This document shows, one piece after another, positions 1-2,912 of a DNA stretch of 64,000 nt. The stretch's first letter is position 1; each line of letters opens with the position of its first letter. Origin of the DNA: Agrococcus sp. Marseille-Q4369 (GTDB taxonomy: Bacteria > Actinomycetota > Actinomycetes > Actinomycetales > Microbacteriaceae); assembly GCF_018308945.1 (NCBI RefSeq), contig NZ_CP070501.1, positions 1,178,001 through 1,242,000 on the forward strand, in the 5' to 3' direction. The translations under genes were made by a program, and so were the position numbers. The notes under the pieces were generated by a model, which did no database searches, was not told the origin of the DNA, and saw only the letters and a program-made list of their open reading frames with translations.

Positions 1-109
1 CTTCGAGCTGCTGCTGCACGTCATACGCCGAGAGGGCCTCCGTCGAGTCCCAGACGGCGTCCATCACGACGCGCTCGAGCTCGCCGAGCGCGGGCATGTT
101 CTTCCGCAT
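1..109 (-). CDS. BlaI/MecI-family transcriptional repressor, N-terminal part (runs off the window)
   Basis: Only the first 36 codons are inside the window. The protein begins MRKNMPALGELERVVMDAVW, which matches the start of the winged-helix domain of BlaI/CopY-family repressors (the 'GeLE..vM..vW' helix). The ATG at 107-109 is preceded by GGGAGG at a good distance; an in-frame ATG four codons later is the alternative. In the family, dimers bind inverted repeats and are often inactivated by proteolysis or a co-encoded sensor. It is divergent from cydAB and the gap holds three phased dyads, so repression of cydAB (and of itself) is inferred. The rest of the protein and any partner protease lie outside the window. 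Confidence 0.8.
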   Translation of the reverse strand, partial: MRKNMPALGELERVVMDAVWDSTEALSAYDVQQQLE

Positions 110-151
110 CGTGCCTCCCGGCCCAGTGTGACGCATCCGTCGTGATTCCGA

Positions 152-212
152 TTCTACAACGAGTCGAACTTCTTCTATGCTGTGTAGAAGAGGTTCTACG
201 CGCCGTAGAACC
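152..212. promoter_or_regulatory. Three phased dyads, likely BlaI-family operators in the cydAB promoter
   Basis: Three copies of TTCTAC-N5-GTAGAA lie at 152-168 (one mismatch), 172-190 (one mismatch) and 192-212 (GGTTCTAC-N5-GTAGAACC, perfect). Their centres, 160, 181 and 202, are exactly 21 bp apart, two helical turns, so dimers would sit on one face of the DNA. A possible -10 (TATGCT, 176-181) lies inside the middle dyad, consistent with repression of cydA. BlaI sites in other bacteria also contain CTAC/GTAG half-sites. The assignment to the neighbouring BlaI-like gene is inference. Confidence 0.7.
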
Positions 213-235
213 CAGCGCAGCAGAGGAGAGCCGGC

Positions 236-1825
236 GTGGAAGCGCTCGACATCGCCCGATGGCAGTTCGGCATCACGACCGTCTACCACTTCATGCTCGT
301 GCCGCTCACCCTCGGGCTCGGCATGGCGATCGCCGTCATGCAGTCGATCTGGGTGCGCACCGGCGACGAGAAGTTCCTGCGCATGGTGAAGTTCTGGGGG
401 AAGCTCTACCTCATCAACTTCATCCTCGGCGTAGCCACCGGCCTCGTGCAGGAGTTCCAGTTCGGCATGGCGTGGAGCGAGTACTCGCGCTTCGTCGGCG
501 ACGTCTTCGGCGCCCCGCTCGCGCTCGAGGGGCTGCTCGCGTTCTTCGCCGAGTCGACCTTCCTCGGCATCTGGATCTTCGGCTGGGGGCGCCTCCGCAA
601 GGGCCTGCACCTCGCGGCGCTCTGGTGCGCGGTGATCGGCTCGTGGCTCTCGGCCTACTTCATCATCGTCGCGAACTCGTGGATGCAGCACCCCGTCGGC
701 GTCGAGATGACCGCCGAGGGCCGCCCGGTCATGACCGACATCTGGGCGGTGCTGACGAACAACACGGCGATCGCCGCCTTCACCCACACCATCTTCGGCG
801 CCCTCATCGTCGCCGGCATGTTCCTCATCGGCATCTCCTGGTACCACTTGTGGCGGCGCCGCCACGACGGGATCGACACGACGGATGCGTCGGGTCGCGT
901 CATCGTCGGCGAGGCGGCCTCGGTGCCGGGTCGCGACCGCACCGACCACGGGGTGTGGCTCTGGTCGCTGCGCGCCGGCGCGGTCGTCGCGATCGTCGCC
1001 TTCGGCGGCACCGCGCTCACGGGCGACTGGCAGGGCAAGCTCATGTACGAGCAGCAGCCGATGAAGATGGCCTCCGCCGAGGCCGCCTGCCACACCGGCT
1101 CGTCGTTCTCGGTGCTCTCGATCGGCGACCCCGGCACGACCGATTGCCGCGACGTCATCACGCTCATCGAGATCCCCGGCGTGCTCGGCTTCCTCGGCAC
1201 CGGCGAGTGGGGCGCCGACATGCCCGGCATCGTCGACCTCGAGCCGCAGTACATCGACCAGTACGGCGAGACGATCCCCGACGACGAGCTCTACGGCTCG
1301 TTCGCGGGCACCGAGGTGAAGTACGTGCCGCCGATGTGGGTGACCTACTGGGGCTTCCGGCTCATGATCGGGCTCGGCGGCATCACCGCCTTCGGCGCGC
1401 TCGTCGCCCTGTGGCTCACGCGCCGCGGCACCGTGCCGTCGTCGCCGTGGATCATGCGGCTCGCGATCCTCGGGATCCTCGCGCCGTTCGCCGGCAACAT
1501 CGCCGGCTGGATCTTCACCGAGATCGGCCGCCAGCCGTTCGTCGTCGCGCCGAACCCCGACCCCTCGGGCATCGACGGGGTGTTCATGTTCACTGCCGCA
1601 GCTGTCTCCCCCGGCGTCACGGTCGGCGAGCTGCTCTTCTCCGTCATCACGCTCACCGCGGTCTACGCCGTGCTCATGGTGGTCGAGATCTTCCTGCTCG
1701 TGAAGTACGTGCGCGGCGGGGTCGCGAGCGCCATGCCCGAGCTCGCGCCGCGGCACGACCGCGGCGACGACCCGAGCGACCGACCTGGCGGCGAGCGGGA
1801 CGACGTGCTCGCCTTCGCCTACTGA
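236..1825 (+). CDS. cydA: Cytochrome bd ubiquinol/menaquinol oxidase subunit I
   Basis: 529 aa, about the normal length for the short-Q-loop actinobacterial form. Subunit I carries the three haems and the quinol site and reduces O2 to water in the membrane without pumping protons. The start reads MEALDIARWQFGITTVYHFM; His18 corresponds to the haem b595 ligand. About nine hydrophobic helices are visible. The conserved GRQPW motif appears as GRQPF (near residue 437). The GTG at 236 fits the family N-terminus and follows GAGGAGAG. cydB starts 28 bases after the stop, so they form an operon. cydDC is not seen within the window. Expression is probably controlled by the phased dyads upstream. Confidence 0.97.
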   Translation: MEALDIARWQFGITTVYHFMLVPLTLGLGMAIAVMQSIWVRTGDEKFLRMVKFWGKLYLINFILGVATGLVQEFQFGMAWSEYSRFVGDVFGAPLALEGLLAFFAESTFLGIWIFGWGRLRKGLHLAALWCAVIGSWLSAYFIIVANSWMQHPVGVEMTAEGRPVMTDIWAVLTNNTAIAAFTHTIFGALIVAGMFLIGISWYHLWRRRHDGIDTTDASGRVIVGEAASVPGRDRTDHGVWLWSLRAGAVVAIVAFGGTALTGDWQGKLMYEQQPMKMASAEAACHTGSSFSVLSIGDPGTTDCRDVITLIEIPGVLGFLGTGEWGADMPGIVDLEPQYIDQYGETIPDDELYGSFAGTEVKYVPPMWVTYWGFRLMIGLGGITAFGALVALWLTRRGTVPSSPWIMRLAILGILAPFAGNIAGWIFTEIGRQPFVVAPNPDPSGIDGVFMFTAAAVSPGVTVGELLFSVITLTAVYAVLMVVEIFLLVKYVRGGVASAMPELAPRHDRGDDPSDRPGGERDDVLAFAY

Positions 1826-1853: not shown

Positions 1854-2912
1854 ATGGAACCGCTCACCATCACCTGGTTCGTGCTCATCGCCGTGCTCTG
1901 GATCGGCTACCTGCTGCTCGAGGGCTTCGATCTCGGCGTCGGCATGCGCATGCTGTTCGCCTCGCGCGACGAGCGCGAGCGCCGCGTCATGCTCAACACC
2001 ATCGGGCCCGTGTGGGACGGCAACGAGGTGTGGCTCATCACCGCCGGCGCCGGCACGTTCGCCGCCTTCCCGGAGTGGTACGCATCCCTCTTCTCGACGC
2101 TCTACGTGCCGCTCACGCTCGCGCTCGTCGGGCTCATCCTGCGCGCCGTGTCGATCGAGTGGCGCGGCAAGGTGCACACGCAGCGGTGGCGCTCGGCGTG
2201 GACGGCCGGCATCGGCATCGGCTCGCTCATCGCCGCCTTCTGCGTCGGCGCGATGCTCGCGCTCACGACGCTCGGGCTGCCGATCGACGGCAACGGCGAC
2301 CGCGTCGGCGGGCCGTTCGTGTGGTTCGGCTGGCCGGCGATCGTCGGCGGCCTCGCGGTCGTGGGCTTCTCGCTCGCGCACGGCTCGACGTTCCTGGCGC
2401 TCAAGGCGGATGGGTCGGTGCGGTCGCGCGCGGCCGTGTTCGCCGAGCGGTGGTCACCCGTGTGCCTCGTGCCCGCGGCGATCTGGGCCGTCTGGGTGCA
2501 GCTCGAGCATGGCGGCAACCCGCTCTCGTGGGCGCTCGTGCTGCTCGCGGTGGTCGGCGGCGCGTGCGGCTGGGTGCAGGCGCGGGCGCGGCGCGAGGGA
2601 CTCGCGTTCACGGGCTACGCGGCGTTCGGGCTCTTCGGGGTCGCGGCGATCTTCGCGGGCGTCTTCCCGAAGGTGCTGCCCTCGACGATCGACCCGGCGT
2701 TCGACCTGACGCTCATGAACGCGTCGAGCAGCCCGTACACGCTCGGCGTCATGACGGTCATCACCGCGGTGAGCCTGCCGATCATCCTCGGCTACCAGGC
2801 GTGGAGCTACTGGGTGTTCCGGCGCCGCGTGACGCCCGGCATGATCCCCGACGCGCACATCGTGCTGCCGGCGATCCTGCGGGACCGCGACCAGGCGTCG
2901 CCGACGGCGTAG
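1854..2912 (+). CDS. cydB: Cytochrome bd oxidase subunit II
   Basis: 352 aa, family-typical. Family hallmarks are visible: the first helix with GYLLLEGFDLGVGM (about residues 21-34), then NTIGPVWDGNEVWL (about 56-69). Subunit II scaffolds subunit I and holds no haem. The ATG at 1854 follows GGAGGCATCCGCC, a usable Shine-Dalgarno sequence. It ends 26 bases before two tandem hairpins that may terminate or insulate the operon. Confidence 0.97.
   Translation: MEPLTITWFVLIAVLWIGYLLLEGFDLGVGMRMLFASRDERERRVMLNTIGPVWDGNEVWLITAGAGTFAAFPEWYASLFSTLYVPLTLALVGLILRAVSIEWRGKVHTQRWRSAWTAGIGIGSLIAAFCVGAMLALTTLGLPIDGNGDRVGGPFVWFGWPAIVGGLAVVGFSLAHGSTFLALKADGSVRSRAAVFAERWSPVCLVPAAIWAVWVQLEHGGNPLSWALVLLAVVGGACGWVQARARREGLAFTGYAAFGLFGVAAIFAGVFPKVLPSTIDPAFDLTLMNASSSPYTLGVMTVITAVSLPIILGYQAWSYWVFRRRVTPGMIPDAHIVLPAILRDRDQASPTA

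Follow-up and report, generated by a model that had tools for sequence, protein, structure and literature searches.

In Agrococcus sp. Marseille-Q4369, the cytochrome bd oxidase genes cydAB diverge from a gene for a BlaI-family repressor, and the gap between them holds three palindromic dyads with the consensus TTCTAC-N5-GTAGAA. Judging from the sequences and their comparison across relatives, we consider it likely that these dyads are operators at which BlaI represses both cydAB and its own blaI-blaR operon, with a membrane protease proposed to cleave BlaI and so release cydAB. The window, a stretch of 64,000 nucleotides (positions 1,178,001 to 1,242,000 of NZ_CP070501.1), and the genome to its left contain the following features, in window coordinates unless marked as genome positions.

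1..109, minus strand: N-terminal part of the blaI-like repressor gene (PF03965), ATG start at 109-107, alternative at 97-95
152-168: predicted operator dyad 1, TTCTACAACGAGTCGAA (TTCTAC-AACGA-GTCGAA), one mismatch, centre 160, conserved in the genus
173-189: predicted operator dyad 2, TTCTATGCTGTGTAGAA (TTCTAT-GCTGT-GTAGAA), one mismatch, centre 181
194-210: predicted operator dyad 3, TTCTACGCGCCGTAGAA (exact, TTCTAC-GCGCC-GTAGAA), centre 202
236..1825, plus strand: cydA, cytochrome bd oxidase subunit I, GTG start (PF01654, 494.6 bits)
1854..2912, plus strand: cydB, cytochrome bd oxidase subunit II (PF02322, 327.7 bits; TIGR00203 above its cut-off)
genome 1176914-1177729, minus strand: blaR-like zinc protease gene (271 residues, HERAH motif), left of the window, with its start 11 bases beyond the stop codon of blaI

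The blaI-cydAB locus

Profile matches confirm the neighbours named in the sequence-only reading, a minus-strand BlaI-family gene facing plus-strand genes for CydA and CydB, the two subunits of a bd oxidase encoded side by side. The blaI-like gene crosses the left window edge and extends to genome position 1177741. Its product is the only PF03965 match in the genome (80.7 bits, covering profile positions 1-114 of 115) and has the winged-helix and dimerisation domain of the BlaI/MecI family over its full length; the best solved relative is 2g9w (E 4e-17), and its profile also matched MecI and BlaI structures. A fused CydDC exporter gene lies about 3 kb left of blaI, and the order of the cluster is cydDC, RES-domain gene, blaR-like gene, blaI, operators and cydAB. 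The RES-domain protein belongs to a toxin-like family (genome 1175296-1176024, minus strand, between cydDC and blaR), and its gene has a small overlapping upstream gene with no Pfam match, possibly forming a toxin-antitoxin pair. Directly after cydB, at 2939-2998, are two short near-perfect palindromes, GCAAAGTGCCAGCACTTTGC and GCAGAGTGTCGGCACTCTGC, which can also pair with each other.

The three dyads had been claimed at centres 160, 181 and 202, and all are present there: the literal consensus occurs once and the other two copies match it at 11 of 12 bases. Each dyad is 17 bp long, with centre-to-centre spacings of 21 and 21 bp. In pattern searches of the 2.74-Mb genome, dyad 3 is the sole exact match, and exactly three sites have at most one mismatch, all within 59 bp of the blaI-cydA gap, compared with about 0.43 expected from base composition. 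Shuffles of the window predict 0.06 matches at up to two mismatches, and four are observed, three of them in the gap. Genome-wide, however, sites with up to two mismatches number 42, versus 90 for a reversed control pattern; we therefore dismissed a wider regulon in this genome, and the predicted regulon is the blaI-cydAB locus alone. Among genus relatives, nearly all that bear blaI retain an exact copy of dyad 3, and most retain TTCTATGC of dyad 2.

Candidate promoter elements overlap the dyads. Read by eye, a candidate cydA -35 (TCTACA, 153-158) overlaps the left arm of dyad 1 and a candidate -10 (TATGCT, 176-181) lies inside dyad 2, which makes plausible the suggestion that the middle dyad covers a -10; the two are weak, matching 8 of 12 consensus bases at a distance of 17 bp, and a sigma-70 consensus scan of the promoter region reported no elements. 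Dyad 3 would then lie near or just downstream of the cydA transcription start. On the minus strand, a candidate blaI -10 (TAGAAT, also read by eye) falls within dyad 1. If these elements are correct, bound BlaI would occlude both the cydA and the blaI promoter. The proposal that the two-turn spacing reflects cooperative binding on one DNA face holds up only in part. Agrococcus and the nearest Microbacterium retain the 21-bp spacing (42 bp where the middle site is degenerate), which is consistent with one-face binding, but adjacent dyads in other genera are mostly 23-25 bp apart, otherwise 32 or about 40-45 bp, often at non-integral numbers of turns. These comparisons show a real spacing that this lineage has maintained, and that is not required in general.

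Conservation of the divergent arrangement

Conservation of the dyads at cydA where blaI is kept had been named as a check on the proposal, and we find that dyads and blaI travel together. Our comparison set was the 80 nearest BlaI relatives in named genomes, the nearest from Agrococcus and others from genera including Microbacterium, Arthrobacter, Kocuria, Dietzia, Leifsonia, Cryobacterium and Brevibacterium. In 78 of these, blaI is divergent from cydA, and all 78 divergent loci have dyads, with a 5-base spacer in 76 and a 6-base spacer in 2. The latter two are Planctomonas-type loci with three dyads each, and their classification as dyad-free was dismissed for that reason. The remaining two relatives have a stand-alone blaI, with no cydA nearby and an exact dyad upstream of blaI. 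When 248 genomes of the order were searched, blind to proteins, for pairs of exact dyads separated by 1-14 bp, matches turned up in 13, every one between blaI and cydA, and none for the reversed-pattern control.

Within the genus, 13 of the 15 genomes that have BlaI carry exact dyads, versus 0 of the 9 that lack it (Fisher p 4e-5, uncorrected for relatedness); of the two exceptions, one has its locus split between contigs and the other has one-mismatch copies in place. This co-occurrence carries a caveat, since the nine BlaI-less genomes also have a different cydA (55-57% identical over the N-terminal part), and it could reflect inheritance of the cyd locus as one block. The genus is thus divided by cydA type, one with BlaI and dyads and one with neither, which suggests replacement of the whole cyd locus.

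A BlaR1-like protease and the proposed release of BlaI

The sequence-only reading had raised a proteolysis- or metal-type signal for control of the oxidase. The former fits, since a gene for a BlaR1-like zinc protease adjoins blaI, following it, in all 80 relatives; as in BlaR1 and MecR1, its product is predicted to be a membrane zinc metalloprotease with HExxH...E. The HExxH motif is present in 81 of 81 BlaR-like proteins, and H180, E181, H184 and E221, corresponding to the gluzincin ligands and catalytic residue, are invariant in an alignment of 32 relatives. Pfam assigns the protein to M48 (42.9 bits); M56, at 23.9 bits, falls short of its cut-off of 31. The structural prediction (pLDDT 91) has as its top match S. 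aureus BlaR1 (8exs) residues 3-293 (Z 12.0 over 211 residues, rmsd 5.5), with Ste24-type proteases ranking after it, and BepA (M48) also matches. Because Foldseek alone gives E values of 0.001-0.07 for the BlaR1 and Ste24-type groups alike, the modelled fold is best taken as that of a membrane M48/M56 protease with BlaR1 as its nearest topology, and since Ste24 and BepA match too, the protease fold alone is no proof of BlaR function. The extracellular penicillin-binding sensor domain is absent from the 271-residue protease: no relative is longer than 374 residues, and the structural match ends at BlaR1 residue 293. In Agrococcus and close Microbacterium, the BlaR-like protein ends before a C-terminal transmembrane helix that is present in other genera. 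In S. aureus, the bond that BlaR1 cleaves directly in BlaI joins Asn101 to Phe102 (PMC9834060); in the BlaI proteins studied here, a Phe is invariant at the aligned position and is preceded by Arg, and the rest of the site is not kept.

BlaI could also control cydAB and be released by a directly bound metal or small molecule, as in CopY, or by a falling BlaI level, with no role for cleavage by BlaR. In favor of such release are a weak match of BlaI to the CopY model TIGR02698 (30.5 bits, far under the 122-bit cut-off), the lack of a recognizable sensor domain in the protease, and the reported binding and repression of blaR and blaC by WhiB4 in M. tuberculosis (PMC5473688). However, this BlaI contains no cysteine and so has no CopY-type metal site with the cysteine motif of that family, for which reason CopY-like metal sensing was dismissed and the suggested metal-type signal finds no support. 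The constant presence of the protease gene beside blaI, with all catalytic residues kept, argues further for proteolysis, and we judge release by a means other than cleavage to be unlikely.

Probable recognition of the dyads by BlaI

The proposed link between the dyads and BlaI draws on neighbourhood, co-occurrence and family precedent. The usual regulators of cydAB in actinobacteria are Rex and two-component systems, SenX3/RegX3 being one for M. tuberculosis cydB, and BlaI binding to the dyads is a prediction, so that the dyads might serve another DNA-binding protein with BlaI as a mere neighbour, perhaps controlling its own operon through another site. Several observations make this improbable. 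Rex was not found in any of the 24 genus genomes searched; the dyads are missing from every BlaI-less genome of the genus; and stand-alone blaI genes retain a dyad in the absence of cydA. The architecture also fits the motif measured by DAP-seq and EMSA for Clostridium thermocellum BlaI, in which 6-bp inverted repeats 5 nt apart form ordered arrays for several protomers (PMC8457756). Half-site variants track the BlaI recognition helix: sites of the form TACTAC...GTAGTA beside cydA go with an M. tuberculosis-like AYTTVMTVLDRLA helix, and TTCTAC dyads accompany mostly LTVLSRLE. Three conserved predicted operators would cover the repressor's own promoter and the divergent one, as in BlaI/MecI systems, and the co-occurrence of dyads with blaI supports the proposed BlaI-type control of a bd oxidase.

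A beta-lactam response system of the classical BlaR1/BlaI kind, by chance beside cydAB, is very improbable and was dismissed as the main role: family membership and a single class A beta-lactamase in the genome would favor it, but that gene lies some 500 kb off and has no site of one mismatch or fewer, the penicillin-binding domain is missing from the BlaR-like protein, and the conserved neighbours are respiratory genes.

Under repression by BlaI with release by proteolysis, we infer binding, repression and cleavage in the following order. BlaI dimers would fill the tandem dyads, covering the -35, -10 and start region of cydAB along with the blaI promoter that lies back to back with it, and would thereby repress cydAB and blaI-blaR together. 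Upon a disturbance of respiration or of the membrane, the membrane zinc protease, with a BlaR1 fold minus the penicillin sensor, would cleave BlaI and release both cydAB and blaI-blaR.

A wider site set in Micrococcaceae

Across 31 Micrococcaceae genomes, the exact dyad occurs 141 times versus 16 for the control (row sums). Exact sites lie upstream of hemQ-hemH in about 12 Micrococcaceae genomes, where this is predicted to be a BlaI-controlled heme synthesis operon; upstream of hmp, the gene for the flavohaemoprotein NO dioxygenase, in six genomes of Micrococcaceae and one of Microbacteriaceae, the latter with tandem sites 18 bp apart; and, in a few Micrococcaceae genomes, upstream of a His-phosphatase/ResA operon for cytochrome c maturation. 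Sites in single genomes precede hemA, the heme o synthase gene ctaB, the aa3 oxidase subunit II gene ctaC, SURF1, CopC/CopD-type genes, isocitrate lyase, phosphate acetyltransferase and an ABC transporter divergent from a SufR-like gene. The single-genome targets are leads only, but by their predicted functions the recurrent ones are a coherent heme, oxidase and NO set. Given the sites before hemQ-hemH, hmp, resA and the single-genome heme and oxidase genes, Micrococcaceae BlaI looks like a repressor of heme and respiration functions, and these targets suggest impaired respiration, heme supply or shortage, or NO as the trigger.

A broader role, to which we give somewhat less than even chances, is that sensor-less BlaR and BlaI act as a master repressor system, for respiratory-chain and heme biogenesis in Micrococcaceae and for bd oxidase alone in Rex-less Agrococcus, that reports stress in respiration, heme or NO at the membrane by cleaving the repressor directly. 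If true, this would be a one-step protease pathway serving respiration rather than antibiotic resistance.

Relation to known systems

Rex, a repressor of Streptomyces and other Gram-positives, controls cydAB and heme genes in actinobacteria, and in this it resembles the system proposed here; Rex differs in sensing NADH through a Rossmann fold, in binding a different site and in not having been found in this genus. A close parallel within the family is M. tuberculosis BlaI-BlaR (Rv1846c-Rv1845c), which shares the BlaI family (2g9w being the best solved relative here) and a sensor-less BlaR. Unlike that pair, Agrococcus blaI-blaR is divergent beside cydAB and shares with it an operator of three dyads, and the genome contains no further site; the half-sites are TTCTAC, and the Micrococcaceae sites reach heme and oxidase-biogenesis genes. 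S. aureus BlaR1-BlaI and MecR1-MecI share the divergent layout, the winged-helix repressor, the membrane gluzincin HExxH...E and the Phe at the cleavage position, but the system here lacks a penicillin-sensor domain, has a terminal oxidase as its target in place of a beta-lactamase or mecA, and carries Arg rather than Asn before the conserved Phe. C. thermocellum BlaI_0696 is alike in its 6-bp inverted repeats 5 nt apart, ordered dyad arrays and autoregulation, but has a GTCTAT half-site and a regulon that comprises sensory genes plus a hypothetical gene, with no respiratory target (PMC8457756).

Parts of this picture are already known: M. tuberculosis BlaI has been reported at the cytochrome bd (cydA) promoter (PMC5473688, citing Sala 2009), and mycobacterial BlaR without a penicillin sensor is in the literature. 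In addition, transposon sequencing shows that M. tuberculosis needs blaR to use heme iron (PMC7058343), and M. tuberculosis BlaI represses the gene heading the ATP synthase operon, a link to energy metabolism (PMC12565901). What is new is the dedicated divergon of blaI-blaR and cydAB with its tandem operators, how widely it occurs among actinobacteria, and the Micrococcaceae heme and oxidase site set, on none of which we found a paper in a literature search that covered few subscription journals.

These results suggest that a protein family known from antibiotic resistance runs respiration in many actinobacteria, probably via a sensor-less membrane protease. The compact divergon, with cydAB as the only predicted target in the genome, offers a clean, non-pathogenic system for finding the signal of sensor-less BlaR, and the extended site set leads to a specific, testable claim, namely that respiration and heme are managed by a family of beta-lactamase repressors. 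Such a role would help explain the appearance of BlaI-BlaR in mycobacterial studies of bioenergetics, heme iron use and drug tolerance.
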